This document shows, one piece after another, positions 1 through 32,339 of a stretch of DNA of 36,439 nt (its first letter is position 1; every line of letters begins with the position of its first letter). The stretch spans positions 1 to 36,439 of IMG/VR virus record IMGVR_UViG_3300025070_000005, one strand, 5' to 3'. Below the pieces are notes generated by a model. That model searched no databases. It was not told the origin of the DNA and worked only from the letters and a program-made list of their open reading frames with translations. The stretch is from a virus. A program made the position numbers and the translations under genes.

Positions 1-20
1 AATAACAAACTTTGAGAATT

Positions 21-155
21 ATGGCCGAACAAATTAAACACGCAGAAACTAAAGTAGAATTTTTTAAAGATGCCTTTGCTGAAACGGGTGATAAGTATTA
101 TTACGAACAGGCTAACAACTGGATTAACCACATAGCTGATTTGAAGAATAACTAA
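21..155 (+). CDS. 44-aa leader protein, unknown function
   Basis: The ATG at 21 opens a 44-codon frame ending at TAA 153-155. The product is small, charged and probably helical (begins MAEQIKHAETK, ends ADLKNN), with several aromatic residues in the middle (KYYYEQANNW). I do not recognise a family. The ORF is the only one inside the 186-bp repeat and exists in a second identical copy on the other strand (29578-29712). The 12-bp inverted repeat arms touch its start codon and its stop codon, so translation would open the stem. It may act as a leader peptide, or be a real small early protein made from two loci. Confidence 0.6.
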   Translation: MAEQIKHAETKVEFFKDAFAETGDKYYYEQANNWINHIADLKNN

Positions 156-186
156 TTCTCAAAGCACCGAAGGTGAGTAGGTGCTT
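153..186 (+). promoter_or_regulatory. Attenuator-like alternative hairpins at leader end
   Basis: AAGCACC (162-168) can pair with GGTGCTT (180-186). The inner CACC can instead pair with GGTG at 172-175 across three bases. Bases 153-164 can pair with 10-21 around the start codon of the leader ORF, and this uses three bases of the hairpin. These folds exclude one another, as in transcription attenuators. In copy 1 the stem is followed by AATTTAAA; in the inverted copy it is followed by TTTTAATT, which looks more like a terminator. Inference from sequence only. Confidence 0.45.
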
Positions 187-789: not shown

Positions 790-850
790 GTTGTAAACTG
801 GTTGCCATCTTCACAACATTTGCGCAAAGATTGGGCAACTTGTTTACAAC
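790..850 (+). other. Long imperfect stem-loop in early intergenic gap
   Basis: The 172-bp gap between neighbouring genes holds a 61-nt hairpin. GTTGTAAAC (790-798) pairs with GTTTACAAC (842-850), GTTGCC (801-806) with GGCAAC (834-839) and ATCTT (807-811) with AAGAT (827-831), about 20 pairs in all. The 3' arm is followed by ATAGG and then ATGAATAATACTA; related words occur beside the stem-loops at 3566-3609 and 26131-26200. It could be a processing or termination signal, or a dispersed element. Confidence 0.6.
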
Positions 851-885
851 ATAGGATAACATGAATAATACTAACAAGGTAGTAA

Positions 886-3565: not shown

Positions 3566-3609
3566 GTTGTATGGCGAGGTACGAGCGTACCGTTTTAATG
3601 GCATACAAC
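3566..3609 (+). terminator. Nested stem-loops with T-run after the early operon
   Basis: An outer stem GTTGTATG (3566-3573) / CATACAAC (3602-3609) encloses a tight hairpin GGTAC-gagc-GTACC (3578-3591) followed by GTTTT. The inner part fits an intrinsic terminator with a short stem. The 3' arm runs straight into the 60-bp repeat described next. Confidence 0.5.
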
Positions 3610-3660
3610 ATAGTATATGCTCAATACGCATATTCCTAAATATTCAGAATAAGATGAACA
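3601..3660 (+). repeat. 60-bp dispersed repeat, left copy
   Basis: Aligned with the reverse complement of 26131-26190, 56 of 60 bases match and all four differences are C/T transitions. Both copies follow the 3' end of a transcription unit and begin inside the 3' arm of a stem-loop. Together they bracket the 22.5-kb structural module in inverted orientation. Confidence 0.85.
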
Positions 3661-3753
3661 AACTAGGCTACACAACATTAATAATTGTACCTATGCTAAA
3701 AAAACATTAAATTCAAGTGGTATTTCTAAATAAATAATTTAACAAACCACTCA

Positions 3754-17447: not shown

Positions 17448-20400
17448 TGGCAGAAAGATTTTACGCTGACCATACAACCACAGAAACAGGCGAAGATATC
17501 CGTGTTGAGATTCACGATAGTGATTTTGTGGGTTCGGCTTCCAAGCTGAAAGGAACGGGTGCAGGATGGGCTTCACGATCCGTACAACAACTAGACCCGA
17601 GAAACCCGTTATCAAGTCCTGTTCAAAAATCTGAAGTATCAGTTTCATTGTGGGTTGAAAGCTCCTCATTAATTGATGATTTATTTTCAAGCGAAGAAGG
17701 CAGATTTACACTTATCTATGATAAAGATTCAACGGAATACTTTGAAGGAACTATACTTCCTGATTTATGTGATTATGATTACTTAGAAGATAGTGCTTTA
17801 TGGAAGCTAACTATAAAAGCTAAAGATTTATCCATATTAGAGGGTGAATATTATACCGATGATGGAACTATTTCAGGAGCGCTTGAAACAGGAAGAGTTA
17901 CGGTTATTGAGGCAATAGCCGATATACTGCCGTATTCTAAGACAATAAAAACGCATACATCGTGGATAGTTGATGGAACAACTACATCAAACGATTATTT
18001 AAGGCAAGTTTATATAGATAAATACGCACTTAGAACTTATGCACGAACGGGAGACGAGTCAGACGAGCCTATAACTAAGCTGACAGCTTTAGAATGGATT
18101 CTTAAATCTAATGGACTGATACTAAAACAAGAAAACGGATGGGTTTTAGATCATATAACAGCCATGTCAAACCCTGCATCGGTATTAGAGTCAAATTACG
18201 ACACTTCAGGTACGTTTAGTTCTGCATCGAATGTTGATTTAACAAATACAGCAACGATAGTTATAGGTAGTCCATACAATCATAACCCGGGTATTAAATC
18301 GGCTCGATTAAAATACGACCACAGAACAAAGATAAGCGGTATTGTTTATCCGAGTGTTATTGAGTTAGTTGATGCAGGAACAGATTCTTTTTCACAGTTA
18401 TTTATAAGTGACGGAAGCCAAACATTATCGCTTTCATTTACAGTGAATGCTGAGACTGATGAAACTGAGGCGTCAATGGATGCTAGGGTTCGTATTACAT
18501 CGGGAAGCTATTATTTACAGGACGACTTATCGTGGGATACAACGGTTAATAGTTATGTAGAGTTTTCACTAACAAAAGGAAAACCCTTGTCAGGTGGTGG
18601 TAATGTTTGGAGAGGCAGTTTTTCCATAACAACCGATGACATACCCGATGCAGCGGACGGAACTTTAACCGTTCAATTTGCAGGTGCTACGGGTGGTATA
18701 GATTTTGCGGACACTACGGAATATTACGATATTGGATTTTCAATAAATAACTCGGTAGCTCAAGAAAAATCAACATACATAGATTATCAACTGACCCAAA
18801 CGGGAACACAATCAGTTAGGGCTGGGTATGGAAGCGTTTACTTTGGTGATGGTCCTGTTGGGTATTCAAGAGGCGCAATAACCACCGATTCAGGTGGTAC
18901 GGCTTTCACGGCTGATGATTGGGCGAGAAGAGGTGAGGTTTCCTTTGTTAACCATGCTGAAATATTATTAAGAGAGCTGTTAGATGTTCAGAGAAAATCA
19001 AGAAACCGTATAAGTGCAACCGTAAAATCGGGTTTATCCTTTGGTGATATTATTTCTTATGATAGCACTAATTACTATGTGTTAGGTGGGTCTCAGGATG
19101 GCTATACAGGAGTCTCAAAAGTTGAATTACTAGAAGTTGATATACAAACAGGTACAGATACATTTGAAGATTTACCCAAGTTTGAAGAAGAGGCTGTTTC
19201 AGGTAGTGCAAGCACTTCAGGAGGAACAGGGCTAGATGTTACAACGGCTGATGCTAGGTATTTAAAACAAACTAGTAATTTATCTGATATAGATGATGCG
19301 TCTACGGGGAGAACTAATTTAGGTGTAGCAATAGGCTCAGATGTTCAAGGACATAGTGATGCTTTAGATGATATTTCTTTATTAGATGATTCTGACGGTA
19401 ATTTCATAGTAGGTAGCGCTACGGGATGGGTCGCAGAATCAGGAGCTACGGCAAGGGCTAGCTTAGGAGCTAACGATGCAAGTAATTTAACGACGGGCAC
19501 ACTACCAAGCGGAAGAGTGTCAGGTTCTTACACGGGAATTACAGGGGTTGGTGCTTTAAATGCAGGTTCTATTTCTTCTGGATTTGGAGCGATTGACATA
19601 GGCTCGAGCACGTTAACGGCAGGGGCGGCACAAATAATAGGCGATGCCTCTTTAGCTCAGATATTGGTTACCACAAACGCAAATAGTGGAGAGTCTCGAT
19701 TAAGATTAAGACCTGATAACGGTTTACAGGGTGGGTTAGATCTTATAGCCGATGAAACAAATAAAGAAGCTATAATACAAACAAATAACTCTGCTCTTTG
19801 GGATTTAATCTTCAAGATAAGGGGGAGTGATGGAACCAATGAGCGATTTAGGATAGCTAAAGACGTAATAACATCAACAGTAAACTTAAATATAGGAAGT
19901 AATGCATTAACGGCAGGGGCGGCACAAATAATAGGCGATGCCTCTTTAGCTCAGATATTGGTTACCACAAACGCAAATAGTGGAGAGTCTCGATTAAGAT
20001 TAAGACCTGATAACGGTTTACAGGGTGGGTTAGATCTTATAGCCGATGAAACAAATAAAGAAGCTATAATACAAACAAATAACTCTGCTCTTTGGGATTT
20101 AATCTTCAAGATAAGGGGGAGTGATGGAACCAATGAGCGATTTAGGATAGCTAAAGACGTAATAACATCAACAGTAAACTTAAATATAGGAAGTAATGCA
20201 TTAACGGCAGGAACGGGTACATTTGGTGGTACAGTATCCGTAGATAGGGCGGTTGTTATAAGAGATGCCGGAGATACACAGGCATCCTCATTGTCATTAT
20301 ACGAAAGTGGGTCTATTGACGTTTTATTAAGAAGCGACACGGGGACTTCTTATTTGTGTGCAACGGGTGGAGAGTTAGCGGTTGGTGGCGCTTCTCAGCT

Positions 20401-21790
20401 AGGTTCTGCTAAATTAAGCGTTCATGGTGCGTTAACTGCATCAGGGCTTGGTACTCTTAATTCGTTGGGTGTTACGACTACTTCAACATTTGGCGGTAAT
20501 GCTACTTTTGAAAGCAATCTATTTATTGAGGGTGGGCTTTTTGCTAGAGAGTTTATAGTAGATGTTACCAAAGTTCAGTTTGATAACTTAATGACTGTCG
20601 GTGGTGGTAAAGTTGCTAGTGTATCAGGAAGCGCAGGAAGTGAGACAATAACATTTGAAGATGAAAATGGAACCGAAATAGTACCTGTCGGATTAGATGA
20701 TATTGTTCACATTCAAGTAAGGTCGGGAACTACGTTTGGAACGATAGTAAAGAACATTTATAGAAGAGTTGATAACATAGCTACTAATGATATCGAACTA
20801 ACCACTTCAGGAATTACGTGGACAACGGGAGACGATGTTGGGAGTATAGAAGTTGGCGATGATATATTTGTACAGGGTAATCCGACAGATGCAGATAGAG
20901 ACCATTATATTAAATTCGATATCTCGGGTGTTACGGTTCCAAGAGTAAGCGTATTTGATAACGTGATTGATGTGGACGATGATGGCGACCTTCGTATGGT
21001 TTGGGGAGGTATGGACGGAGTATTTGGGGTTACAGGCGATGAAATTGGAATAGGCGTTGGAGATTCTACATTATCAGGAAACCATTTTTTACTTACTGAT
21101 TCACAGGCTAGTTTGAAGCTTGATAACTATGCACTTTCCGCAGGTACGGGTTCGGCAATTATAGGAATGCAATCAGGTAATGCAAGTGATGAGGCTTGGC
21201 TTTGGGGTGGTTCTAATCAAACCGATGGCGCAAGTGTTACGAATGCAAATACTAAGTTCTTTGTGCTTAACAACGGAAAGATTGTTTATAACGGAATGGG
21301 TAAAATTATTTACTCTCCTATGCAAGTTGCGGACTATGGTTCGGACACAGCGGAAGCCTCAGACCCACAGAATAGCGAATGGACTTGTTTAGCTCAAACA
21401 TCGGGCGTTGGAAACAGCGACTCAGACAGCAGAGTTGCAATCGTTAGTAGGTTTAGAAAGCAGTTTGGACTTGATAACATAAATGTGAATTTCTTTGCAG
21501 AATATGCGAGAACGAGTTCTTCAACGGCTTTATATACGAATGAAGTTCAGGTTGTAATTAAAACGGTTGCAGGGGTAACACAAAGTACTAGTACTTACAC
21601 GGTTACAGGCTCAACACATTCCGAGTTTGATGAAGATATAGACATAAGCGCTTTAACCGATGGCGACATTTATTCGATTGAAGTAATTAGATATGCAGAT
21701 GTAGAAATTAATTCAGGTGATGAATTTGACACAGCAACGAACAGAACCAATTTAAGAGGTGATGTTTACATAACAACTAGTCCAGAATAA
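17447..21790 (+). CDS. Tail tip/fibre protein (1447 aa)
   Basis: Residues 1-550 look like a tail-tip hub or distal-tail type region (MAERFYADHTTTETGEDIRV; LDPRNPLSSPVQKSEVSVSL). From about residue 600 the protein becomes fibre-like: SNLSDIDDASTGRTNLG, GATARASLGANDASNL and repeated xIGSxxLTAG words. Residues 723-918 are a perfect 98-residue segment present twice. The C-terminus (from about 1290) is a beta-rich domain with no recognised chaperone peptidase. It is the best candidate for receptor contact. Gene follows the tape measure with one-base contact. Confidence 0.82.
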   Translation: MAERFYADHTTTETGEDIRVEIHDSDFVGSASKLKGTGAGWASRSVQQLDPRNPLSSPVQKSEVSVSLWVESSSLIDDLFSSEEGRFTLIYDKDSTEYFEGTILPDLCDYDYLEDSALWKLTIKAKDLSILEGEYYTDDGTISGALETGRVTVIEAIADILPYSKTIKTHTSWIVDGTTTSNDYLRQVYIDKYALRTYARTGDESDEPITKLTALEWILKSNGLILKQENGWVLDHITAMSNPASVLESNYDTSGTFSSASNVDLTNTATIVIGSPYNHNPGIKSARLKYDHRTKISGIVYPSVIELVDAGTDSFSQLFISDGSQTLSLSFTVNAETDETEASMDARVRITSGSYYLQDDLSWDTTVNSYVEFSLTKGKPLSGGGNVWRGSFSITTDDIPDAADGTLTVQFAGATGGIDFADTTEYYDIGFSINNSVAQEKSTYIDYQLTQTGTQSVRAGYGSVYFGDGPVGYSRGAITTDSGGTAFTADDWARRGEVSFVNHAEILLRELLDVQRKSRNRISATVKSGLSFGDIISYDSTNYYVLGGSQDGYTGVSKVELLEVDIQTGTDTFEDLPKFEEEAVSGSASTSGGTGLDVTTADARYLKQTSNLSDIDDASTGRTNLGVAIGSDVQGHSDALDDISLLDDSDGNFIVGSATGWVAESGATARASLGANDASNLTTGTLPSGRVSGSYTGITGVGALNAGSISSGFGAIDIGSSTLTAGAAQIIGDASLAQILVTTNANSGESRLRLRPDNGLQGGLDLIADETNKEAIIQTNNSALWDLIFKIRGSDGTNERFRIAKDVITSTVNLNIGSNALTAGAAQIIGDASLAQILVTTNANSGESRLRLRPDNGLQGGLDLIADETNKEAIIQTNNSALWDLIFKIRGSDGTNERFRIAKDVITSTVNLNIGSNALTAGTGTFGGTVSVDRAVVIRDAGDTQASSLSLYESGSIDVLLRSDTGTSYLCATGGELAVGGASQLGSAKLSVHGALTASGLGTLNSLGVTTTSTFGGNATFESNLFIEGGLFAREFIVDVTKVQFDNLMTVGGGKVASVSGSAGSETITFEDENGTEIVPVGLDDIVHIQVRSGTTFGTIVKNIYRRVDNIATNDIELTTSGITWTTGDDVGSIEVGDDIFVQGNPTDADRDHYIKFDISGVTVPRVSVFDNVIDVDDDGDLRMVWGGMDGVFGVTGDEIGIGVGDSTLSGNHFLLTDSQASLKLDNYALSAGTGSAIIGMQSGNASDEAWLWGGSNQTDGASVTNANTKFFVLNNGKIVYNGMGKIIYSPMQVADYGSDTAEASDPQNSEWTCLAQTSGVGNSDSDSRVAIVSRFRKQFGLDNINVNFFAEYARTSSSTALYTNEVQVVIKTVAGVTQSTSTYTVTGSTHSEFDEDIDISALTDGDIYSIEVIRYADVEINSGDEFDTATNRTNLRGDVYITTSPE
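19613..19906 (+). repeat. Fibre gene duplication, unit 1 (294 bp)
   Basis: Identical, by direct reading, to 19907-20200; the unit is 98 codons so the frame is kept. The first 11 bases of the unit (TTAACGGCAGG) occur a third time at 20201-20211, which suggests unequal exchange at that word. It encodes a segment from LTAGAAQIIGDASLAQ to VNLNIGSNA. Confidence 0.9.
19907..20200 (+). repeat. Fibre gene duplication, unit 2 (294 bp)
   Basis: Second copy of the in-frame 294-bp unit, with no visible base change from unit 1. Lack of any synonymous drift points to a recent duplication, or to a collapse/expansion by the assembler. Confidence 0.9.
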
Positions 21791-21793
21791 ACC

Positions 21794-21964
21794 ATGATAT
21801 CAGAAAAAGGGAAGGAACTAATTCAGAACGTAGATAAGCAAGGATTGCTTGAATTGCTATCACAGGATTTAGGCAGTCTTAAATTATCTGATCCTGAACA
21901 TAGGCAAATACAGAGCATTTTAAGAGCTTACAATCAATGCCTTTCAGAGAAGAAAGATAAATGA
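21794..21964 (+). CDS. Hypothetical helical protein (56 aa)
   Basis: ATG 21794 (MISEKGKELIQNV) to TGA 21964, coupled to the next gene by ATGA. Amphipathic helices rich in Leu and Gln (GLLELLSQDLGSL). Unknown function; conserved placement directly upstream of the exonuclease would support a partner role. Confidence 0.6.
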   Translation: MISEKGKELIQNVDKQGLLELLSQDLGSLKLSDPEHRQIQSILRAYNQCLSEKKDK

Positions 21965-22908
21965 TTAACTACGATAACCACAAAGAGTTAATCTTATCAT
22001 TGGATAGTAGAGGGCTGTCATCTTCTGAGATAGCTGAAGTATTAGGAATGAAAACGCCTGATAAAAACTTTCTACCACGATCAATAAGGCAAGCTTTACA
22101 AAGATGGGGAAGGGGTAAGGGTAGAACCGAGCCTGCAAAGATATTGGTTTTTGACATTGAATCTTCGCCAATGGTTACTTATTCATGGCAAGCAAAAACA
22201 AGATACATAACCCCTGATAAAGTTATATCAGATTGGTTTGTTATTTGTTGGAGTGCTAAGTGGTTATTTGATGATGAAATAATAAACTGTTCAGTTACAG
22301 AAGAAGAGGCTTTAGAGAAAGACGACAAAAGGGTTGTTGGCGAATTATGGAAGTTACTCAATGAAGCGGATATAGTAATAGCTCACAATGGAGACAATTT
22401 CGATATTCGTAAAATGAATGCGAGGTTTGCTAAACACAAAATGAACCTACCATCTCCATACTCTAGCATAGATACATACAAGAGCGCCCGTAAGCGGTTA
22501 AATTTAAGCTATTACAGGCTTTCTTATATAGCTGAATACTTTGGGTTAACTCAAAAGAAACAAGACACTAATTTTAAGATGTGGGTTGATTGCTTAAACG
22601 GTGATAAGTCCGCTTTGGATAAAATGCAAGGGTATTGCGACCAAGATATAAGAGTATTGGAAGATGTATATCTTTATTTAAGACCATACATTCAACCTCA
22701 TCCAAATTTAGGGCTTTACATTGAAGAAGAATCTAATATGTGCCCTTCGTGTGCTTCGACTGATTTAGATAAATGCGGAACGTATGCAACAACGGTTAAT
22801 TTGTATGAAGCGTATCGTTGTAAAAACTGCGGTTCTCTAACAAGGGCAAGAAAACATTGCCTAACAAAAGAAGATAAGGAAACGATAACGAGTTCTATAC
22901 CTAAGTAA
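21961..22908 (+). CDS. DnaQ-like 3'-5' exonuclease with HTH and zinc ribbon
   Basis: 315 aa. Residues 1-50 form an HTH-like start (GLSSSEIAEVLGM). The nuclease core shows Exo I VFDIESSP (Asp65, Glu67), Exo II AHNGDNFD (141-148) and Exo III YCDQD (Tyr225, Asp229), the DEDDy set. The C-terminus carries a four-cysteine zinc ribbon (CPSC and CKNC). The fold is that of DnaQ/PolB-type proofreading domains and YprB-like RNase H proteins. It is unusual that it lies among tail genes. Confidence 0.85.
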   Translation: MINYDNHKELILSLDSRGLSSSEIAEVLGMKTPDKNFLPRSIRQALQRWGRGKGRTEPAKILVFDIESSPMVTYSWQAKTRYITPDKVISDWFVICWSAKWLFDDEIINCSVTEEEALEKDDKRVVGELWKLLNEADIVIAHNGDNFDIRKMNARFAKHKMNLPSPYSSIDTYKSARKRLNLSYYRLSYIAEYFGLTQKKQDTNFKMWVDCLNGDKSALDKMQGYCDQDIRVLEDVYLYLRPYIQPHPNLGLYIEEESNMCPSCASTDLDKCGTYATTVNLYEAYRCKNCGSLTRARKHCLTKEDKETITSSIPK

Positions 22909-22944
22909 TTTAGATAAAGTTATGAAAATTCATTATATTTAGTT

Positions 22945-23700
22945 ATGAGCAATTACAAACCATTTAGAGACGATGCTAGGTTTTGGCAAGGTGATACATT
23001 AGCGTACAGCTTCACGTTTACGGAAGATGATGTAGATTTAAACCTAACTACATTCGATGATATTGTCGTTGAATTTAAGAACAGAGATACGACTGTATTT
23101 GAACACTCTGTATCTGATGGAGACTTAACAATCTCGGGTGGTGGTAATAATAAGATTTCAGGGGTTGCAAGTGCTACGACAATGGATATAGCTGTCCGAA
23201 AGTATGATATGGTAGTTTACTTTACGAGTGGTACTGTAAAAAACACGTGGGTATCTTTAGACGTTCTGATTATCAACGAGAACAAAAGCGGAAGTAGTAC
23301 AGGCTCGGAGTTCACGGTAAACATTGATACGACAGCTACAACGGTTACAGGACAAGCGAGTGCGGTAGTAGTAGAGCCTAACGGTGTTATCTTAGTTGAT
23401 GGGCGTTACAGCGGAAATTCAGGTACTAAATACGATGATATAGACTTAGCCATTACCGCAGCTAGGGCAAGGATAGCCGATGATTGGAGTAAAGCGACTA
23501 TTAAGGCTTATTTAGATGCAAGCGGAGACCCTATCGGATTAGGAACGAGTGATATTTTAGCATTAAGAGCAGAAGGGATATTCTTTGAAAGCCCGTTCGA
23601 TGCTTGGGAAGATTTTGTATTTGTAGGCGGAAATTTAAACAATGACGATTTACTCTATAACATAGACAACGAAAATTTAAAAATAGACTTGGTGAATTAA
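22945..23700 (+). CDS. Tail/baseplate protein with BppU-like N-terminus
   Basis: 251 aa. The start FRDDARFWQGDTLAYSFTFT followed by DVDLNLTTFDDIVVEFKNRD matches the N-terminal beta domain of upper baseplate proteins (BppU type). The remainder (VEPNGVILVDGRYSGNSG) is likely a receptor-binding or linker part. TATATTTA at 22934-22941 just ahead of the ATG may be a promoter box. Confidence 0.6.
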   Translation: MSNYKPFRDDARFWQGDTLAYSFTFTEDDVDLNLTTFDDIVVEFKNRDTTVFEHSVSDGDLTISGGGNNKISGVASATTMDIAVRKYDMVVYFTSGTVKNTWVSLDVLIINENKSGSSTGSEFTVNIDTTATTVTGQASAVVVEPNGVILVDGRYSGNSGTKYDDIDLAITAARARIADDWSKATIKAYLDASGDPIGLGTSDILALRAEGIFFESPFDAWEDFVFVGGNLNNDDLLYNIDNENLKIDLVN

Positions 23701-23701
23701 A

Positions 23702-24163
23702 ATGGGATTATCATATAAAAAAGATGCAGTACCTTCAACATTAAGAGAGGGAGAATTTGCCGTAGTTGACGGGGTTACTTATGTGGGTAATTCTAGTAAT
23801 GAGCCTGTTTTGGTTTCAGGAATTGAAACGGCTTTTATAGGGGTTGTAACATTTAATCCATCAACATCCATTTCTATATCCGAAATCAAAAACGGTATAG
23901 GAACTTATACGCTTTCGTACACGTCGGGACCTGATAGGTACAGAATTGATTTTGATGACGCTCTTTATAGCGATTTTTCAAATATATCTATCAGGTATGG
24001 AAATACAATAGCCAATGGATTATCTTTCCCTAATGGTCTTCCTATAATTCATTCTTCTACAAAATTAAGAATAGAGTTCACAGACCCTTCTAATCATGCA
24101 GGTACTGTCATATACGGTTCTCCAAAGGTTATTTACGTGTATATTGATGTAATCAGGTCATAA
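23702..24163 (+). CDS. Putative tail-tip protein (153 aa)
   Basis: Opens with a short fibre-collar-like sequence (LREGEFAVVDGVTYVGN) seen in phage tail proteins that carry a display of fields before a distal domain. The rest is a beta-rich domain ending KVIYVYIDVIRS. Two bases separate it from the upstream gene, and its stop overlaps the next ATG. Confidence 0.6.
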   Translation: MGLSYKKDAVPSTLREGEFAVVDGVTYVGNSSNEPVLVSGIETAFIGVVTFNPSTSISISEIKNGIGTYTLSYTSGPDRYRIDFDDALYSDFSNISIRYGNTIANGLSFPNGLPIIHSSTKLRIEFTDPSNHAGTVIYGSPKVIYVYIDVIRS

Positions 24164-25233
24164 TGCCTAACGCACTCATTATAGGGATATCAGACACTTT
24201 GAATCATGAATTAATAGTTCGTGATTCATTTCTTACCTACGCTCCTAGCGGATGGGATGCTGATATCATTATGGGTACGGAAAATCCTGATTTAATTGAC
24301 AATCAGTATGTAGTTGCTACTTTAGAAATGGGTGGTCAAATAACCTATACTGAATTAGATGGATTTAGAAACTACATATCCAACAACTCACAATACGACA
24401 TCATTATATGCTCTTACTACCTTGAAGGGATTGCATCTGTTTTAGAGGCAATAGTAAGTATTGAAGATAGAGTTTTGTTTATGCCTTTAGTTGGTGGTTC
24501 GGCTAGAAAAAAGAATAACATCATTTATTGTGGAGTAGGTGAAACATCAAACACGATATCAAGCGATAGCAGTAGAATTGAATGCTTCGATAAAGCTACT
24601 TTATTACAATCATCAAGACAATTAACTCCTTCTTATGTAGTGCCTTCAATCGCAGGGAAAGCTTGTTCACTAGTTGATGCAGGACTTACTAACACTCAGG
24701 TTCGCCAAGCCTTTAGAAGCAATTTAAACGACACTTGGACTCAAACAGATGGATTTGGTAAAGTACCATCTAGTTTAACCGTTCCCGAGAGCTACGACAT
24801 TGAGCCTGTAAACAACTTTAGTTTTATAGGTTATGCAAGTTCAACCTATTCAGAGTACACTTTATTTGAAGGGCAAACGATTGATAGTGTTCGTATTTAT
24901 ATGGACGACCAACTTTTATGGGATGGTAACGGAACCGAGAACACACTTTCAGCCACTACATACGCTCCATACGATACAAGGGTAACATACCGAGCTTTAT
25001 TTGAAGATTTTACTTACACATTTGACCAAGACGATGAAGGCGAACACGTATTCAAAGCCGTTGCAGTAGTTGATGATGTAGAATCAGATGCAGAGATTTT
25101 TAGTAAAGAAACGCTAACACTTACACAGGCTATTTTAGAAAACTATTTCGGTGTAAGTTATGACAATCCCGAACCAGCACCACCTGAACCCGTAGAGCCT
25201 GACCCCGAACCCGAAGACCCGAAGACCCGATAG
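24163..25233 (+). CDS. Tail-tip protein with degenerate subtilisin-like domain (frameshifted at 3' end)
   Basis: 356 aa as read. Residues 1-210 resemble the subtilase (S8) core: QYDIIICSYYLEG matches the DVINMSLG strand, VLFMPLVGG matches the AAGN turn, and TPSYVVPSIAG (155-165, Ser157) lines up with GTSxAxPxVAG of the catalytic Ser helix. No convincing HGT motif for the catalytic His is seen, so it may be inactive. A beta domain and a Pro/Glu linker follow. An 8-bp tandem duplication then shifts the frame, giving a premature TAG at 25231-25233. Confidence 0.6.
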   Translation: MPNALIIGISDTLNHELIVRDSFLTYAPSGWDADIIMGTENPDLIDNQYVVATLEMGGQITYTELDGFRNYISNNSQYDIIICSYYLEGIASVLEAIVSIEDRVLFMPLVGGSARKKNNIIYCGVGETSNTISSDSSRIECFDKATLLQSSRQLTPSYVVPSIAGKACSLVDAGLTNTQVRQAFRSNLNDTWTQTDGFGKVPSSLTVPESYDIEPVNNFSFIGYASSTYSEYTLFEGQTIDSVRIYMDDQLLWDGNGTENTLSATTYAPYDTRVTYRALFEDFTYTFDQDDEGEHVFKAVAVVDDVESDAEIFSKETLTLTQAILENYFGVSYDNPEPAPPEPVEPDPEPEDPKTR

Positions 25234-25517
25234 TTCCCGACCCCACACAACCGACAGCCGTACGAGTTGGAACGACTGTAACAGTTACAGCTAATGAACT
25301 GGGAACTAGTCAAAAACTCTTCCGTAAGCTACGAACTAACGATGAATGGGTACAAGTAGCGACTGCAACCGATGGAGTACTTACAGATACCGTTGATGAA
25401 GCTAAGAACTACATATACGCTATTAAGATAGCTAACTCAACAGATGAATCCGATTACTCGGAACCTGTGTATGTAGCAGGGGTTAAATCAACTCCGATAG
25501 TTAGTCTTATATATTAG
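25213..25517 (+). pseudogene. Out-of-frame Fn3-like C-terminal extension of the tail-tip gene
   Basis: GAAGACCC occurs twice in tandem (25213-25220, 25221-25228). Removing one copy restores an open frame that reads PEDPIVPDPTQPTAVRVG and continues to TAG 25515-25517, about 95 further residues with an Fn3-like look (VTVTANELGTSQKLFRKL; YIYAIKIANSTDESDYSEPV). There is no start codon to translate it alone. The long open frame with normal composition says that it was recently coding, or is still expressed by phase variation or frameshifting. Confidence 0.75.
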
Positions 25518-25968
25518 ATAAGAACTCTAATCCTTCATCAAAAGGACGATACACTCCGTTTATACGGCTCCAAGTTGCTTTTCTATTTCCTGTGTCAAGA
25601 TGAAACATAGTTCTACGCTTGAAGTTGTACGTGGTATCGGGGTAAATTCCAATTCCTGAGAAGTTTACCTTTTTTGCTATTGAGAAAAAGTCATAAGCAT
25701 TAGCATAGGCGTTAAGCGTATGAGCTTCAAAAAAAACATCTATTGCCTTCACTTCACCCCATTTATTTATGTTGTGTTGCGAGTTGCTATCATCTTCCCT
25801 ACCTATTGCATCTTTGTGTGGGCTTATTATAATCGGTGCGTTCCATATATTACGCAGGACATCCAATCTCACTAATAGTGAAGGGCACATATCATCGAAC
25901 CAATTCCTACCGTTACGATTAAACTCTGACTTCTTAAAGTGTGTTAATTTATCTTCCATTGGTTTCAT
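25507..25968 (-). CDS. Endolysin, M15-family zinc peptidase
   Basis: 153 aa. Likely cuts peptidoglycan peptides (D,D- or L,D-bonds). His65 in NSQHN, Asp77 in VKAIDVFF and His123/Asp125 in MFHLDTG form the zinc site in the order typical of Peptidase_M15_3; SGIGIYPD before the last motif also fits. It lies at the far end of the leftward operon, convergent with the late module, overlapping the extended tail-tip frame by 11 bases. No signal peptide, so it should need a holin. Confidence 0.82.
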   Translation of the reverse strand: MKPMEDKLTHFKKSEFNRNGRNWFDDMCPSLLVRLDVLRNIWNAPIIISPHKDAIGREDDSNSQHNINKWGEVKAIDVFFEAHTLNAYANAYDFFSIAKKVNFSGIGIYPDTTYNFKRRTMFHLDTGNRKATWSRINGVYRPFDEGLEFLSNI

Positions 25969-25974
25969 TTTTAG

Positions 25975-26076
25975 TTAATGGATAAGCACCCCTAACAGCT
26001 GGACTTTCACCGTGTTTTTCGGGGTTGCTGGTTTGAGTGCGGTACTATCAACCCTTTTTCCCTTCCATTGTTTCAT
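25975..26076 (-). CDS. Possible microprotein upstream of endolysin (33 aa)
   Basis: ATG at 26076 (complement), stop 25975, six bases before the endolysin start. Basic N-terminus (MKQWKGKRVD) and a hydrophobic end (TVKVQLLGVLIH). No family; kept because it fits between coupled genes. It may be non-coding. Confidence 0.35.
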   Translation of the reverse strand: MKQWKGKRVDSTALKPATPKNTVKVQLLGVLIH

Positions 26077-26130
26077 TTTTATTGAATTTTCATCGTTAGT
26101 TCAGATTTTTTGATACTAATTAAATAGTAT

Positions 26131-26190
26131 TATTCATCTTATTCTGAATATTTAAGAATATGCGTATTGAGCATATACTATGTTATGTGC
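26131..26190 (-). repeat. 60-bp dispersed repeat, right copy (inverted)
   Basis: Reverse complement matches 3601-3660 at 56 of 60 positions. On this strand it follows the end of the kinase gene, whose stop codon (26183-26185) lies inside it. A short GTTAT/ATAAC stem (26182-26186, 26196-26200) takes the place of the longer stem at the left copy. Confidence 0.85.
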
Positions 26191-26650
26191 AAGCTATAAC
26201 GTCTTTTAAATATTGTCCTGTGCTTAATTCAATCTTTTTACAACCAATCTGATTTTGCAATTGTGTTATCCATTCAGTCCAGTTATCACTTACCAGTTTA
26301 ATAAAACTTTCATTGCTTCCTCGTTGTTTATACCTTTCTATAAACTCTTGTTTCAAGTCAATATTTGGGTAAACAAGAGTAAAGTGAAAACCTTCTTTAA
26401 CAAGTGCATCCCTTACAACTTCGTGGCTACTTATAAGTATAATATCTACTTTACCCAAATTTGCCTTAATATGGTCTATGTAATTTTTAGGAAAAAAAGC
26501 TTTATCAAACTTACTACTATCACTATCTAAAACTTTTAGCTTAGAATGGTTGTAAAGGTAACTTTTGCCAACTGCTGGAAAGCCTGCACATAACAACGTG
26601 GATAATTCATTGATATTTTCTGCATTTTTGGAATCTAATTGTTTACTCAT
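26183..26650 (-). CDS. P-loop kinase-like protein
   Basis: 155 aa. Walker A GFPAVGKS at residues 23-30 and DSDSSKF at 42-48, followed by IILISSHEVVRDALV and the ERYKQRGSNESFI segment. This set is shared by small phage NTPases annotated as nucleoside/nucleotide kinase-like. Substrate not known. A leftward gene, flanked on both sides by AT-rich gaps with stem-loops, so it may be an independently acquired cassette. Confidence 0.7.
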   Translation of the reverse strand: MSKQLDSKNAENINELSTLLCAGFPAVGKSYLYNHSKLKVLDSDSSKFDKAFFPKNYIDHIKANLGKVDIILISSHEVVRDALVKEGFHFTLVYPNIDLKQEFIERYKQRGSNESFIKLVSDNWTEWITQLQNQIGCKKIELSTGQYLKDVIACT

Positions 26651-26712
26651 AATTTATTGTTTATTAATTAATATTTATTCTTTTTGTCGCAACGAAATCA
26701 TACACACAACCG

Positions 26713-26796
26713 TTATAATACAACTAAAATCACTATTCCAGTCCCTATCGTTATAATCAATGCTATTGTTAGCTTAAAGGCTTTTATTCTGTTCAT
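26713..26796 (-). CDS. Membrane microprotein (27 aa)
   Basis: ATG overlaps the upstream TGA as ATGA. After a basic start (MNRIKAFK) nearly all of the peptide is a single membrane helix (LTIALIITIGTGIVILVVL). Coupling and composition support it; function unknown. Confidence 0.5.
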   Translation of the reverse strand: MNRIKAFKLTIALIITIGTGIVILVVL

Positions 26797-27098
26797 TTCT
26801 TAATCTGAATTAACCCCTTTTCAATTAACTTAATTTGAGTTTCAAATATTGCTCGCATCCAATCCTGATAAGAAACCTTGCCCGAATCAGCGTGTTTGTG
26901 GCAATCATCACAGCCATAAGCGCCCCAAAAATCAGGGCTTTTAGTTCCCATTCCCTTTAAAGAGCTTGGAGCGTGGCAAAATACCGTACTTGCTTGCCTA
27001 TGGTTGCATACGTTTTCAATCCTGAATGCGCATAGCTCCCCGTGAGCGCTTCGAGTTATTGATTCTGATTTTATTACGGGTGGTTTAGGAAACATCAT
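26793..27098 (-). CDS. DUF1364-type HNH-like protein
   Basis: 101 aa. RSAHGELCAFRIENVCNHR, VFCHAPSSLKGMGTKSPDFW and GAYGCDDCHKHAD reproduce the order of conserved residues in DUF1364, a Cys/His metal-binding protein in phage recombination regions. It may be a structure-specific or HNH nuclease. Next to RusA, as in other phages. Confidence 0.8.
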   Translation of the reverse strand: MMFPKPPVIKSESITRSAHGELCAFRIENVCNHRQASTVFCHAPSSLKGMGTKSPDFWGAYGCDDCHKHADSGKVSYQDWMRAIFETQIKLIEKGLIQIKK

Positions 27099-27454
27099 TC
27101 TACATCCTCAATTTCAATTATAGTGTAAACTGATTTATTGTTTTTTGCTTTTTCCCATCGGGGTTTAAACTCAACTATTATAGAAGGCTTATCATCTTTT
27201 ATAACTCCTGAACTAACTAATCCGTCTCCCCAATGCTTGAAACTTGCACATAAATTATCCCAGTCAGGAGCTACCACGCTTGCCCGTGTATAAGTGATAA
27301 TAACCTTACCTTTATGCTTGTTGGGTTTCTCCGATATTATAGCCCATTTTATGGCTGTTTGTCGCTTTTTCTTAGCATGGAAGTGTTCACGGATCAATCC
27401 GTTTTTTCCATTTAAAGTTGGTGTTACAAAATCAAATTCAAGGCGTTGCTTCAT
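27095..27454 (-). CDS. rusA: RusA-family Holliday junction resolvase
   Basis: 119 aa. VVAPDWDNLCASFKHWGDGL followed by SSGVIKDDKPSI carries the conserved acidic residues (Asp64, Asp66, Asp77, Asp87/88) of RusA. It resolves branched DNA made during replication and ERF-driven recombination. ATGA contact on both sides. Confidence 0.88.
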   Translation of the reverse strand: MKQRLEFDFVTPTLNGKNGLIREHFHAKKKRQTAIKWAIISEKPNKHKGKVIITYTRASVVAPDWDNLCASFKHWGDGLVSSGVIKDDKPSIIVEFKPRWEKAKNNKSVYTIIEIEDVE

Positions 27455-27675
27455 TTTAAATAGTATCTGTTATTCTTCTTTTCAATTTCTACACACGTTC
27501 GCATTTCTGCTAACCTTCTTAATCCTTGCCTTTCACAAATATCAAACTGATCTAATATATCCGACAACTTAAAACCTTTGTATTCAAACTTAGAATAAAG
27601 CCAAATATAAATTAGCTTTGATCCAAAACTCATATCAAGGTCGTTAATAGTCTCTATGAAATCAGATGTTATCAT
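27451..27675 (-). CDS. Small winged-helix-like protein (74 aa)
   Basis: FGSKLIYIWLYSKFEYKGFK then LSDILDQFDICERQGLRRLA fit a helix, helix, recognition helix plus wing (IEKKNNRYYLK at the end). Probably binds DNA; no closer assignment possible. Overlaps its neighbours by 4 bases on each side. Confidence 0.6.
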   Translation of the reverse strand: MITSDFIETINDLDMSFGSKLIYIWLYSKFEYKGFKLSDILDQFDICERQGLRRLAEMRTCVEIEKKNNRYYLK

Positions 27676-27890
27676 ATTCTCTTTTTAGTCAGCTTGTAAG
27701 CCCCCTCCTTTTTTGTAAGATAACCTTTTTTAATTAGCGCTTTAATGTTCTGTGTTACGCTGTGAGGCGACCTAAAACCAAACGCTTCTTGTATTACAAT
27801 ATAAGTAGGAAAAACGCCCTTATCAGATTTATAATCTTTTATGTAGTTTAAAAACTCTAATTGCTTCAATGTAAGTTGTTTGCTATCCAT
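27672..27890 (-). CDS. LexA-type winged-helix DNA-binding protein, domain only
   Basis: 72 aa. LTLKQLEFLNYIKDYKSDKG, FPTYIVIQEAFGFRSPHSVT and IKALIKKGYLTKKEG reproduce the LexA N-terminal domain. The peptidase domain of LexA is absent, so it cannot be self-cleaved. It could compete at SOS boxes or act as a phage regulator. A 130-bp AT-rich gap upstream may carry its promoter, but I see no consensus there. Confidence 0.75.
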   Translation of the reverse strand: MDSKQLTLKQLEFLNYIKDYKSDKGVFPTYIVIQEAFGFRSPHSVTQNIKALIKKGYLTKKEGAYKLTKKRI

Positions 27891-28021
27891 CTTTATTTAA
27901 TATATGTATAATTAATATTGATTGCTACTTTAATATTATGTATTTTATATGTGCAAGCATGAGAAACAGCTTGGCACGTTCATAACAAAATTATGTTCGA
28001 TCAGGTAAAGAGCCGTGTATC

Positions 28022-28138
28022 TTAAAACGTATATGGCAGGAATATTCTTTTTTCATAGGGGCTTTTTTCTTTTGTTTCTTTACTTATGTTTACGGTGTTC
28101 TTTCCTTTGGTTTGTTTTCTTTTTAAGAAAGTGTTCAC
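28022..28138 (-). CDS. Basic microprotein (38 aa)
   Basis: GTG start overlaps the previous TGA (GTGA). Very rich in Lys and Arg (NTFLKRKQTKGKNTVNISKE), ending FLPYTF. Might bind nucleic acid. Low confidence because of composition and GTG start. Confidence 0.4.
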   Translation of the reverse strand: MNTFLKRKQTKGKNTVNISKETKEKSPYEKRIFLPYTF

Positions 28139-28227
28139 TTCTTCCTCTCCAATATAATAACCCCGATTATAATCAAAGCCAAATATGCTACAATCATTAA
28201 GTAGGATATAATTTGATGTTCGCTCAC
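28135..28227 (-). CDS. Membrane microprotein (30 aa)
   Basis: GTG start within the stop region of the previous gene. Central hydrophobic helix (YLMIVAYLALIIIGVIIL) with a basic end ERKK. Similar in style to the 27-aa peptide at 26713. Function unknown. Confidence 0.5.
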   Translation of the reverse strand: MSEHQIISYLMIVAYLALIIIGVIILERKK

Positions 28228-28439
28228 TTCATCCTCACTATTATTGGTGTTTTACCTTCGTAACTTATTACATTTTTATTTTCTCGTAACATCCTGATAA
28301 ACTGTTTCCTATTTGTAGAAATCAGAATAGTAAATCGCTTCACTCCGTGTATCTGATATTGATTCATCATTTCCATCAGGCAATCCAAAGGACTGCTTTC
28401 TGATATATCTCCTAGCGTTCGTGAAGTTCTTCCATCCAT
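28224..28439 (-). CDS. Hypothetical protein (71 aa)
   Basis: Soluble, mixed alpha/beta, with KRFTILISTNRKQFIRMLRE in the middle. No family recognised. Part of the chain of small leftward genes downstream of the structured RNA. Confidence 0.55.
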   Translation of the reverse strand: MDGRTSRTLGDISESSPLDCLMEMMNQYQIHGVKRFTILISTNRKQFIRMLRENKNVISYEGKTPIIVRMK

Positions 28440-28469
28440 ACAAAAGCATTAGTATTAATATTAAGTAAA

Positions 28470-28667
28470 TCATTCTATGCCTAATATAGATTTAGCTTGT
28501 TTCATAGCCTTATACTTCTGCATAGTGTCTAAGTCAATCGGGGTGTATGCTGTACCAATTTTAGCCATTGCGCCCATTACAAAGAGTTTATTACCCTGCC
28601 TGTCGAAATCTACTTTGCATTCTTTTTCCTTACCTGCAATCTCTAGTTTAATATCAAGAGTTTCCAT
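28470..28667 (-). CDS. Hypothetical protein (65 aa)
   Basis: Beta-rich first half (LDIKLEIAGKEKECKVDFDR) and helical second half (DTMQKYKAMKQAKSILGIE), like small tail-chaperone or DNA-replication accessory folds, but no match recognised. Start overlaps the previous TAA by one base. Confidence 0.6.
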   Translation of the reverse strand: METLDIKLEIAGKEKECKVDFDRQGNKLFVMGAMAKIGTAYTPIDLDTMQKYKAMKQAKSILGIE

Positions 28668-28732
28668 TATTCTTTTATCCTTAGATTTTTAATATCAACG
28701 CCAAACTTATCAGCTACTTTAAATTTACTCAT
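28667..28732 (-). CDS. Microprotein (21 aa)
   Basis: ATG overlaps the upstream TGA and its TAA overlaps the next ATG, so it is placed by double coupling. Reads MSKFKVADKFGVDIKNLRIK then E. May serve only to link translation. Confidence 0.35.
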   Translation of the reverse strand: MSKFKVADKFGVDIKNLRIKE

Positions 28733-28899
28733 TCCGAAACTCCTTTAAGTTTATTTATCTCTGTTACAAGCTCATTTATCTTTTCTATTAAAACGGCAAT
28801 GTTTTCAGATGTAGATTCGGGAACTGCTTTATATTCGTAACCATCAGGTTTTGAATACATGTTTGGCATATCCCATATTGAAATTTCTTTAATACTCAT
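28729..28899 (-). CDS. Hypothetical protein (56 aa)
   Basis: Start at the ATG at 28899 (MSIKEISIWDMPNMYSKPDG). The frame also has an ATG at 28956, but that extension would run through the inverted repeat 28927-28973 and looks unlike protein. The C-terminus is a coiled-coil-like helix (ENIAVLIEKINELVTEINKL). Confidence 0.6.
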   Translation of the reverse strand: MSIKEISIWDMPNMYSKPDGYEYKAVPESTSENIAVLIEKINELVTEINKLKGVSE

Positions 28900-28924
28900 T
28901 ATTCTATATTTAGTTAAAATTAAT

Positions 28925-29390
28925 TGAGCCGATTGAGGGATATGCTCCCCCTTCATCCATTGCAGAATCGGCTTCCAGAAACAACATAATTAACTGGTTT
29001 ATGTTTTACTGGATTATCCAGTTTAAAATAAGGCTCACTAACTGCTTCAGGGCTTAGTGAGTGGTGTGTTTCGTTACGTCTTTCAAAACCCGATACGCCT
29101 GAAGATCACCGCTTCCTTAAAATGTTGAGTGAGGACAGGATTCGATACCTGTAAGATGGTTTGTTGCTTCGATGCTTTAATCCATTTAGGAGTGTCCACA
29201 TGGGTCTTATCCATCTACCCGTTATAGCGTTTACTTATCGCATTGCCCGTAGTCTGGATTATTCGGTTAATAACCTATTTTTATGCGCTTTCGCCACCTC
29301 ACTCAGTTTCAAGGAACCCGAACTAAACACCGCTTTCATGTCTCTTTTGCTTCTAGGAAAGCAGGGCGTCCTAGAACATTCGGGTTCCAA
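28925..29390 (-). ncRNA. Candidate large ornate structured RNA
   Basis: A block of about 470 bp without a credible gene, packed with long complementary arms: 28927-28934/28966-28973 (8 bp), 28983-28989/28999-29005 (7), 29008-29013/29017-29022 (6), 29034-29041/29054-29061 (8), 29126-29134/29297-29305 (9), 29135-29139/29148-29152 (5), 29154-29159/29211-29216 (6), 29313-29322/29379-29388 (10) and 29351-29358/29369-29376 (8). Loop bases 29045-29051 pair with 29098-29104 (7 bp), a pseudoknot. Minus strand is preferred because all nearby genes and the strong promoter at 29744-29774 point that way; a TATATTTA box near 28911 keeps the plus strand possible. Size and phage setting recall GOLLD and ROOL RNAs, but membership is untested. 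Confidence 0.6.
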
Positions 29391-29452
29391 TTTCATTAAA
29401 TTCAAAGAACTGTTTAAAACCCGATTATGCTCTCACACACAATCGGATAATC

Positions 29453-29527
29453 TCATTTGCTTATTTTACTGATAAAATCGTCTTTCAGCGTTTCGTTTAT
29501 TTCGTTTACTATCTCGGAGGTTTTCAT
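29453..29527 (-). CDS. 24-aa ORF after the inverted leader copy
   Basis: ATG at 29527 preceded by AAAGGAATTGAT, the same spacing as at the right-hand end of leader copy 1. Product MKTSEIVNEINETLKDDFIS then KISK. A CCGATT/AATCGG stem (29421-29446) followed by TTTT on this strand comes shortly after the stop. It may be only a leader for the RNA downstream. Confidence 0.4.
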   Translation of the reverse strand: MKTSEIVNEINETLKDDFISKISK

Positions 29528-29546
29528 ATCAATTCCTTTTAATTAA

Positions 29547-29732
29547 AAGCACCTACTCACCTTCGGTGCTTTGAGAATTAGTTATTCTTCAAATCAGCTA
29601 TGTGGTTAATCCAGTTGTTAGCCTGTTCGTAATAATACTTATCACCCGTTTCAGCAAAGGCATCTTTAAAAAATTCTACTTTAGTTTCTGCGTGTTTAAT
29701 TTGTTCGGCCATAATTCTCAAAGTTTGTTATT
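29547..29732 (-). repeat. 186-bp leader repeat, inverted copy
   Basis: Exact reverse complement of 1-186. Flanks differ immediately at both ends. It starts 12 bases downstream of the -7 box of a strong promoter, the same arrangement as at the right contig end. Confidence 0.95.
29578..29712 (-). CDS. 44-aa leader protein, second copy
   Basis: Identical in sequence to the ORF at 21-155. The absence of even one synonymous change argues that the copies are kept alike by gene conversion or arose recently. Here it leads into the structured RNA block instead of a gene run. Confidence 0.6.
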   Translation of the reverse strand: MAEQIKHAETKVEFFKDAFAETGDKYYYEQANNWINHIADLKNN

Positions 29733-29743
29733 AATTGCTTACA

Positions 29744-29774
29744 CAAAGATAGTAAACTCTAAATTTAAAGTCAA
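29744..29774 (-). promoter_or_regulatory. Bacteroidota-type promoter for the inverted leader unit
   Basis: On the minus strand TTG (29774-29772), 20 bases, TATCTTTG (29751-29744), a full match to TTG-N20-TAnnTTTG. A dyad GTTAAC-TAAA-GTTGAC overlaps the -33 element and could be an operator. Confidence 0.75.
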
Positions 29775-29793
29775 CTTTAGTTAACAATTATTT

Positions 29794-30084
29794 TCAATTA
29801 ATCATTTGCATAGTTCCGTACCCGTGTTTTAGTACGTGAGATTGATACCACCTGTCGTTAATTAGCTCATTATGTTTTTTCACGCTCTTATAAACTGTTA
29901 CTCTCGTTCTGTTTAGAAATTCAGATATTTTTTTAATCGGAATACTTTGAGATTTACAAAGCGCTATAAACCCATGTCGGTACATACAAAGCTCCTGCAA
30001 CTGGTTAGGGGATGTAAGGTCGCTTACTATTATCCCGTGTTGCTTACAATAGAATTTTGCTAGGTTTTGGATGGATGGTTTCAT
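29794..30084 (-). CDS. DnaA C-terminal-domain-like DNA-binding protein
   Basis: 96 aa. LAKFYCKQHGIIVSDLTSPN, then a helix with GFIALCKSQSIPIKKISEFL and RTRVTVYKSVKKHNEL, which resemble the DnaA domain IV order of helices with its signature position. No ATPase part. Probably binds double-stranded DNA; might recognise DnaA-box-like sites in the phage origin or regulate. Confidence 0.6.
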   Translation of the reverse strand: MKPSIQNLAKFYCKQHGIIVSDLTSPNQLQELCMYRHGFIALCKSQSIPIKKISEFLNRTRVTVYKSVKKHNELINDRWYQSHVLKHGYGTMQMIN

Positions 30085-30335
30085 TTTATATCTTTTTTTG
30101 ATATAAGTTCAATTTCTTTATTTAATCTTTTGTTTTTATCGAAACCCCTTGATTCCTTTCTAAGCCTTTCCAATCTTTCAATGAGAACTTCTTTAGGCTC
30201 TTCAACTAATTCAATAGTAACCTTATATTTTCGATATTCTAAAAAATTTATATTGCATGGTTCTTCTTTTTTTAATTGATTAATCGTGTATGTATTTTCT
30301 AAATCTTTAAATGTTTCAAATTCAATTTTTTTCAT
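30081..30335 (-). CDS. Hypothetical protein (84 aa)
   Basis: Charged; beta-rich middle (NFLEYRKYKVTIELVEEP) and a long basic helix at the end (LIERLERLRKESRGFDKNKR). No family recognised. Stop overlaps the next ATG by 4 bases. Confidence 0.6.
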   Translation of the reverse strand: MKKIEFETFKDLENTYTINQLKKEEPCNINFLEYRKYKVTIELVEEPKEVLIERLERLRKESRGFDKNKRLNKEIELISKKDIK

Positions 30336-30339
30336 AATC

Positions 30340-30717
30340 CTATCCTGTTATTTTTTTATTTGGTTGTGATGTTAAATGCCAAGCATCACATTTTTTACAA
30401 AAGTATCTTCTCGATTCCTTTCTTGATGAATTAAAACTAAGCAAGCACCTACTAAGCCATTTCCTTGACTCTTCATCAGTAAATGACCTTTTACCACACC
30501 CTAAAGGCTCACTAATGTTCATGTATTCAGCCGTAAACTCTTTAAAGTCCTTCATGTTTTCATTTATGTATTTAATTATTACTGGCATTTTTGGGGTTTG
30601 CTCAGGTCTTACCTTTTTGCCATAAAAATCAGTAGCTACGTTTGATCTGTGAATGTTGTATTTATCCTTTAGGTACTTCATTACATCATCGTAATTTTTA
30701 GTCTCTGAATATTTCAT
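30340..30717 (-). CDS. Hypothetical protein with C-terminal zinc knuckle (125 aa)
   Basis: Helical N-terminal part and a C-terminal CKKCDAWHLTSQ segment, a Cys-Cys-His arrangement common in small replication-associated phage proteins. It is coupled to the DnaC-like gene by 4-base overlap, so a role near replication is plausible but not shown. Confidence 0.6.
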   Translation of the reverse strand: MKYSETKNYDDVMKYLKDKYNIHRSNVATDFYGKKVRPEQTPKMPVIIKYINENMKDFKEFTAEYMNISEPLGCGKRSFTDEESRKWLSRCLLSFNSSRKESRRYFCKKCDAWHLTSQPNKKITG

Positions 30718-31475
30718 CCCGTTATTTTATTTAGTAATTGTTTTTGCCTTTTATCGGCTTCGTCTTGCCTGTGATCGTAATCTGGGAACTCAATCAAAAC
30801 TCCCATTTCCTCAACACGGCTTGCCACTCTAGGGTGGTAGGGTAAATCTTTAATATCTACATTAGAAGTAAATATTGTCGGTTTGCCTGATTGATACCTA
30901 GTGTCTATAATTTCCAAAACTTTATCGTGTCGCCAATCTGTTTTTTTAGCTTCGAATCCTATTTCATCCAATATCAACAAAGGAACACTTTTAATTACGT
31001 TCAATATTCTAAGAGAGCTTATATCTGAATTGCTAAACGATTCCTGAAACAAAGTAAATAAATCATTCATTGTATAAATTTGACTAGCTACCTTGTTACG
31101 GTTGTAAAGTTCGTTCGCTATTATACAAGCTAGTAAAGTCTTTCCACATCCGACAGAGTCCGAATAGAAGTACATTCCAATACCTTCTTTAGATAACCCT
31201 TCCCATTTGGTCAGATATGCCTCTGCTATTTTTTTAATCTTCGTATATCCTCTTTCTTTATCTGTGGTGAAGTCAACTAATAGTTTACCTTCGTACTTAT
31301 TCGCTTGCTCAGAGCCGTACGCATAGCACAAAGGCTTTAAACTATCCGCTTGGATGTCTTGCATCGAAAAAGTAATAGGGTCGCCTATACTCGATTTTTT
31401 AGTCGATTTGATCGAGTATGCTAATTCGCTCTCTTCCATTATTTCGCTTAGTTTTTGGGGTTGCCTTGTTTTCAT
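30714..31475 (-). CDS. DnaC-like helicase loader ATPase
   Basis: 253 aa. Walker A SDSVGCGKT (105-113), Walker B LLILDEIG (Asp170, Glu171), sensor region PTIFTSNVDIKDLP and an Arg-rich lid (VASRVEEMG). Loads a replicative helicase, here that of the host since no phage DnaB is seen. It overlaps the initiator gene by 77 bases, so the two are tightly linked. Confidence 0.85.
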   Translation of the reverse strand: MKTRQPQKLSEIMEESELAYSIKSTKKSSIGDPITFSMQDIQADSLKPLCYAYGSEQANKYEGKLLVDFTTDKERGYTKIKKIAEAYLTKWEGLSKEGIGMYFYSDSVGCGKTLLACIIANELYNRNKVASQIYTMNDLFTLFQESFSNSDISSLRILNVIKSVPLLILDEIGFEAKKTDWRHDKVLEIIDTRYQSGKPTIFTSNVDIKDLPYHPRVASRVEEMGVLIEFPDYDHRQDEADKRQKQLLNKITG

Positions 31476-32094: not shown

Positions 32095-32149
32095 TTTGCT
32101 TGTAGTTTAAAATTAAAAAGCCCCTGAAAGAACCTACCGCTAATATTCT

Positions 32150-32229: not shown

Positions 32230-32248
32230 TCAGATTCAGTAATTACAC

Positions 32249-32279: not shown

Positions 32280-32308
32280 TGGTTAAAAGTGTAAGGTTTA
32301 AAATATTC

Positions 32309-32337: not shown

Positions 32338-32339
32338 AG

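Follow-up and report, generated by a model that had tools for sequence, protein, structure and literature searches.

In this marine bacterial virus, two identical and opposed copies of a tiny first gene appear to open one set of genes each. The window, by which we mean the whole stretch of 36,439 nucleotides analysed here, carries the same 186 bp at positions 1–186, at 36254–36439 and, as the reverse complement, at 29547–29732, with 0 mismatches. The identity with sharp ends noted in the preliminary description is exact, and a search of the record from which the window comes locates the repeat at these three places and nowhere else. Because the longest direct terminal repeat of the contig is 186 bp, the stretches at 1–186 and 36254–36439 are one physical copy. 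Drawn as a circle, the genome has 36,253 bp and two copies of the repeat, R and R', which are mutually inverted. The genome may also carry physical direct terminal repeats of 186 bp; the contig ends are already explained by the repeat itself. What is new relative to the preliminary description is that R and R' flank a recombination and replication module (segment B) as inverted repeats. The features of the window are as follows.

1–186, + strand: repeat copy R, heading the + unit (A-left); exact identity, physically the same as 36254–36439
36254–36439, + strand: R again, as the terminal redundancy of the contig; exact identity
29547–29732, − strand: inverted copy R', heading the − unit (A-right); exact identity
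21–155 (also 36274–36408), + strand: 44-aa ORF (MAEQIKHAET...) in R, from codon usage and a predicted helical hairpin of pLDDT 95.8
29578–29712, − strand: 44-aa ORF in R', from sequence identity
10–21, + strand: left arm of a 12-bp perfect inverted repeat (CTTTGAGAATTA), containing the A of the start codon
153–164, + strand: right arm of the 12-bp perfect inverted repeat (TAATTCTCAAAG), the stop codon being its first bases
162–186, + strand: hairpin AAGCACC-N11-GGTGCTT, from sequence and folds; the last hairpin base is the end of the repeat
29744–29774, − strand: putative promoter P2, TTG-N20-TATCTTTG, 6/6 box positions, +1 predicted at about 29739
36213–36243, + strand: putative weak promoter P1, TTG-N20-TAGATTCT, 4/6 box positions, +1 predicted at about 36248
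187–29546: segment A, with early small and virion genes (+) and then the − unit
29733–36253: segment B, running from the promoter end of R' to that of R; the repeat does not fix its orientation
34484–35044, − strand: Erf-like ssDNA annealing protein (phrog_2324, 9e-36), candidate driver of R x R' recombination

The + strand of segment A carries early small genes, TerS, TerL, portal, capsid and tail genes. The − unit headed by R' contains a small ORF, a structured RNA-like stretch, a LexA-like domain, RusA, HNH and an endolysin-like gene. Segment B, which is 6.5 kb long, encodes HTH, Erf, NinB-like, SSB, DnaD-like and DnaC-like proteins, all on the − strand as drawn.

Outside the sharp edges of the repeat, R and R' share only AAGCAA on the 5' side and a start-region likeness on the 3' side. 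The AAGCAA match (−1 to +5) is on its own within chance, and the 5' flanks are at chance level (1227/5000 as good); for the 30-nt 3' flanks, 8 of 1596 start-region pairs within the window score as high. Taken together, these two similarities look slightly as if an older, longer duplication had had its core homogenised.

The 44-codon gene, its putative promoters and its predicted transcript

The repeat consists of 20 nt of 5' UTR (1–20), the 44-codon ORF (21–155) and a downstream hairpin region (156–186). The ORF, proposed earlier as part of a leader, looks like a real gene with phage-like codon usage. Its mean LLR is 0.24 per codon, compared with medians of 0.17 for 146 true-gene windows and −0.16 for 80 wrong-frame windows; the score equals or exceeds that of 86% of the true-gene windows, and none of the 80 wrong-frame open windows scores as high. 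Both copies hold this open frame with the codon usage of the genome, as expected for a duplicated gene. An ATG ORF of at least 44 codons arises by chance in 29 of 3000 shuffles of the repeat. The 44-aa product is confidently predicted to be a two-helix hairpin, as AlphaFold, run on the single sequence, gives helices at residues 2–22 and 25–43 with a mean pLDDT of 95.8. Searches for relatives of the protein gave no homologue in IMG/VR viral contigs except in the same virus, zero homologues in GTDB genome contigs, nothing credible among phage records (best E 6) and no match in Pfam, PHROGs or NCBIfam; it is also absent from the 25,662 frames of at least 30 aa taken from the fetched loci, the same virus aside. 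With Foldseek, the model matches only generic helical hairpins, and no match reaches E <= 0.001.

The earlier placement of a promoter 10–12 bases upstream of each copy holds for P2, which matches 6/6 box positions and ends 11 nt from the repeat, but P1, ending 10 nt from the repeat, matches at just 4/6. The motif TTG-N18-21-TAnnTTTG has four full matches, on both strands, among which P2 alone has a spacer of 20. A study of F. psychrophilum (PMC9723704) places the promoter box at −12 to −5 and gives a median 5' UTR of 24 nt. With +1 placed according to this flavobacterial box position, the predicted 5' UTRs are 27 nt (from 29739) and 26 nt (from 36248) long, and the repeat begins at +8 and +7, respectively. 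Because such a length is ordinary for the phylum, the ORF is better described as a plain first gene than as a 'leader'. Judged from their sequence, P1 and P2 are presumably active as promoters, and the first gene is probably transcribed and translated. The idea of a shared leader on two opposed units is thereby retained in that the same 186 bp heads both, as a first gene rather than a leader; it is fair to read the 186 bp as an element common to both units, or as a common first gene at the least.

The attenuator-like hairpins described earlier are reduced to one hairpin, weakly; the fold of the whole repeat RNA is ordinary (z −0.84, 39/200 shuffles equally stable), and the U-tract lies outside the repeat and is unequal, being CUUUUAAUU at one copy and CUUAAUUUAAA at the other. 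A transcription attenuator would have its terminator hairpin and U-tract inside the conserved element; with an ordinary fold and tails that differ between the copies, it was dropped as the leading idea. Around the − strand copy no terminator-like site was found by a scan with a loop limit of 8 nt, the loop of this hairpin being 11 nt. The 12-bp arms enclose the ORF, and an inverted repeat of length 12 was reached in 1 of 3000 dinucleotide shuffles. How often the 12-bp stem and the hairpin are predicted to form varies with the sequence that follows the repeat: before A-left, the predicted occupancies are 0.15–0.30 for the stem and 0.81–0.85 for the hairpin, and before A-right they are 0.68 and 0.37–0.38. 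Rfam gives no match for the whole window, at the gathering threshold or at E 1; a search restricted to 28850–29800 returns only a weak + strand U12 match under its cut-off.

Other assemblies and relatives

Contig 3300025118_000094 (29,732 bp), compared in two stretches that are both identical (L001, 1–17748; L035, 17748–29732), equals window positions 1–29732, its two ends coinciding precisely with the outer edges of R and R'. A further contig of this virus, 3300006736_001879, equals positions 20089–29669 and terminates 123 nt inside R'. No second near-identical record was found for module B, so that B and its joins are known from the window's contig alone, and the DnaC of B has no relative among IMG/VR viral contigs and is found in 0/19 relative records. 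A linear genome with inverted terminal repeats, as suggested by L001, was considered and rejected, since B has the Erf, NinB, SSB, DnaD and DnaC-like genes and since Erf and SSB are linked to the terminase in relatives.

At each of its ends, segment A joins the repeat on the hairpin side, and segment B always joins it on the promoter side. Either orientation of B therefore fits. Since both ends of A meet one and the same end of the repeat, there must be two inverted copies, provided that the joins are correct. As drawn, Erf lies on the strand opposite to TerL; GC skew tracks gene direction and leaves the orientation of B unfixed. The orientation as drawn is not certain.

Relatives were collected by a portal query (31 loci, one of them the same virus) and by an Erf alignment (54 loci); Erf alignment against GTDB genome contigs confirmed nothing. 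The polarity set comprised 56 sequences, namely the 54 Erf loci and the cultured phages P12024S and 11b. Erf is on the same strand as TerL/portal in 28/32 and on the opposite strand in 4/32, 24 more being not assessable; three of the opposite-strand loci (L085, L086 and L090) appear to represent a single virus, and the 28 same-strand loci, too, were counted without dereplication. In four relative loci (L063, L065, L069 and L073) a − unit diverges from Erf; it contains small nuclease-like genes and, in 3/4 as drawn, SSB. In relative G003, Erf and its upstream neighbour are on the − unit, opposite TerL. With gene order so varied, the polarity of the early module is labile in the group. The drawn orientation of B is thus unusual, yet not impossible, and inversion of B gives the common Erf-to-terminase polarity.

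The search of related phages for paired inverted leaders, which had been proposed as a check, found a longest inverted repeat of 31 bp in 117 fetched sequences (1.65 Mb, overlapping), from which distant inverted pairs could escape because these sequences are mostly stretches of up to 20 kb. The relatives examined have neither an inverted pair of this kind nor the gene for the 44-aa protein, and the check is not decisive since those phages lack the gene altogether. Direct repeats of 73–106 bp with 76–85% identity occur in 8/12 whole relative contigs, a count that leaves out the local tandem and terminal repeats of G018. The 18 aligned elements, from 7 contigs, are promoter and 5'-UTR segments that stop at start codons; many of them carry AATAACAAA-like leaders, as does the window. 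In G003, a 26-bp core is common to the head of the − unit and to + units. Given the direct promoter/5'-UTR repeats in the 8/12 contigs, reuse of unit heads is normal in the group. Among the viruses examined, the long identical coding repeat is peculiar to this one.

Explanations for the repeat

The reading that we prefer, and to which we give an even chance, is that a first cistron has been duplicated and that its two 186-bp copies are identical through recency or recombination. Each copy would then comprise the tail of a short 5' UTR, the gene of 44 codons and a downstream hairpin, with a different promoter in front of each, and both units would open by making the same small helical-hairpin protein. 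Copy identity would come from recent duplication or from ongoing conversion by recombination; for such homogenisation, the Erf, NinB-like and RusA-like proteins together with the perfect 186-bp homology would suffice. The span of the identity over coding and non-coding parts argues for a duplicated gene, as does the predicted 5' UTR of 26–27 nt, which is close to the flavobacterial median (24 nt). The codon usage, the AlphaFold model, the residual flank similarity, the inverted placement around B and the reuse of unit heads among relatives also count in its favour. Against a plain gene copy, the elements of the relatives include the promoter and end at the start codon, from which this repeat differs, and the 12-bp arms, one taking in the first base of the start codon and the other the stop codon, are left unexplained. 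A side effect of the duplication would be that B is invertible in principle by homologous recombination, since the two copies make an inverted repeat around it, with exchange of P1 and P2 between the units.

Frequent use of this possibility would make B an invertible module that flips at R/R' via the homologous recombination of the phage, so that the population would hold two isomers of the genome, with P1 and P2 swapped between the early/late unit and the ncRNA unit. We consider this rather unlikely. The joins of A at the hairpin end and of B at the promoter end are consistent with both orientations, and an ambiguous B would be expected to stop contigs at R/R', where one contig, consisting of A flanked by two complete copies of R, ends and the other halts 123 nt into R'; however, short-read contigs commonly break at repeats. 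Inverting B would restore the same-strand polarity of Erf and TerL seen in 28/32 relative loci, but polarity is labile, as G003 shows, and B may be fixed in the orientation drawn. Erf, NinB-like and RusA-like proteins are phage-encoded, whereas no invertase, integrase or resolvase is present among the 66 listed ORFs (PHROGs), so that flipping would need homologous recombination by Erf and its partners. The fuller proposal that B flips between the first-gene copies via the phage's own annealing protein, so that operons swap promoters and the population holds two transcription programmes, is in our estimate unlikely; in the open-licence literature searched, no phage replication module inverting between leader-gene copies was found. 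Flipping of the module would amount to recombinase-free exchange of promoters within a phage; it would also warn that a viral genome assembled from short reads, if it holds inverted repeats of such size, may be drawn either way.

Inverted duplications are known at inversion breakpoints in Drosophila. A one-off inversion of B that, through staggered breaks or template switching, left 186 bp at each breakpoint as a functionless duplication would account for a segment bounded exactly by inverted duplications and for a polarity opposite to that of most relatives. But a blind break would not provide each copy with a promoter-like motif on its 5' side and a plausible start region on its 3' side, and we hold this origin to be distinctly unlikely. 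A shared cis-acting RNA of the putL/putR or nut type, whose transcript alters RNA polymerase or binds a phage protein and makes both units termination-resistant, would fit the position just after promoter-like motifs of two opposed units, the identity of the non-coding parts, and the long-range 12-bp stem with its hairpin. However, the compact stable RNA fold of such an element was not found, the repeat being no stabler than its shuffles, the sequence reads as a coding gene and Rfam gives nothing at E 1, which makes a cis-acting RNA very unlikely. Finally, one repeat copy could have been created by misjoining in the assembly. B and its joins come from the window's own contig only, and the exact 294-bp tandem repeat elsewhere indicates that assemblies of this virus are repeat-sensitive; yet both A–R joins are also present in 3300025118_000094 and the A-right join in 3300006736_001879 (the samples may be related or the same), and two ends of A on one same end of R need two copies. 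An artefact is therefore highly improbable.

Known systems and neighbouring features

Cluster K mycobacteriophages carry SAS/ESAS, short sequences repeated at many gene heads; these are much shorter than the 186-bp repeat, have many copies and are not known to lie around a module. In HK022 the put sites occupy the place of the lambda nut sites. The repeat is like HK022 putL/putR and lambda nutL/nutR in that a related element lies behind the promoters of two early units, P1 being weak here. As described in PMC9378689, putL and putR are similar, not identical, RNAs of about 70 nt each, with two stem-loops, which are located downstream of the early promoters PL and PR and act as RNA. The earlier statement that no described phage system has such a form cannot be upheld in view of this precedent. 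In contrast to put, the repeat is 186 bp long, identical and protein-coding, with an ordinary fold energy.

Phase-variation invertible segments of bacteria and phages are similar in their perfect inverted repeats and in segment ends with outward promoter-like motifs. Unlike in those segments, no site-specific recombinase gene was found among the ORFs, B carries replication genes, and flipping is no more than a possibility. The repeated promoter/5'-UTR elements of the relatives are similar in that several units of one genome share 5' heads, but they are 73–106 bp long, 76–85% identical and mostly on one strand, include the promoter and end at the start codon. The general form, shared unit heads, thus has precedent; here it is an identical coding repeat, inverted, around a replication module. 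A mere duplicated first gene would still be a compact case of operon-head reuse and would provide a small, confidently folded, homologue-free protein for testing.

Several other features of the window and its relatives were observed. The tail-region gene of 1447 aa contains an exact 294-bp tandem duplication (19613–20200, +), the copy number of which may be an assembly matter because 3300006736_001879 begins inside it. The early module of Erf, SSB and helicase loader switches strand relative to the terminase among close IMG/VR relatives (G003, G011, G015, L063–L073). On the − strand at 28910–29450 there is an RNA-like stretch of 541 nt, with a fold far below shuffles (z −3.28, 0/100), no Rfam match at E 1 and no convincing phage relative. 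Its inner 180 nt have tRNA-like ends, GAGTGAGG ... ACAGG-TATCGAAT-CCTGT-CCTCACTC, resembling an acceptor and a T-arm; ARAGORN calls neither a tRNA nor a tmRNA by default, and relaxed settings give implausible calls only. Ahead of the endolysin-like gene, positions 25985–26100 (−) are rich in G/C runs with possible stems and have no Rfam match. A second inverted intergenic pair is present at 3601–3665 (+) and 26125–26190 (−), 92–95% identical over 60–66 nt, with one copy per unit and a weaker third copy at about 846–884 (+).
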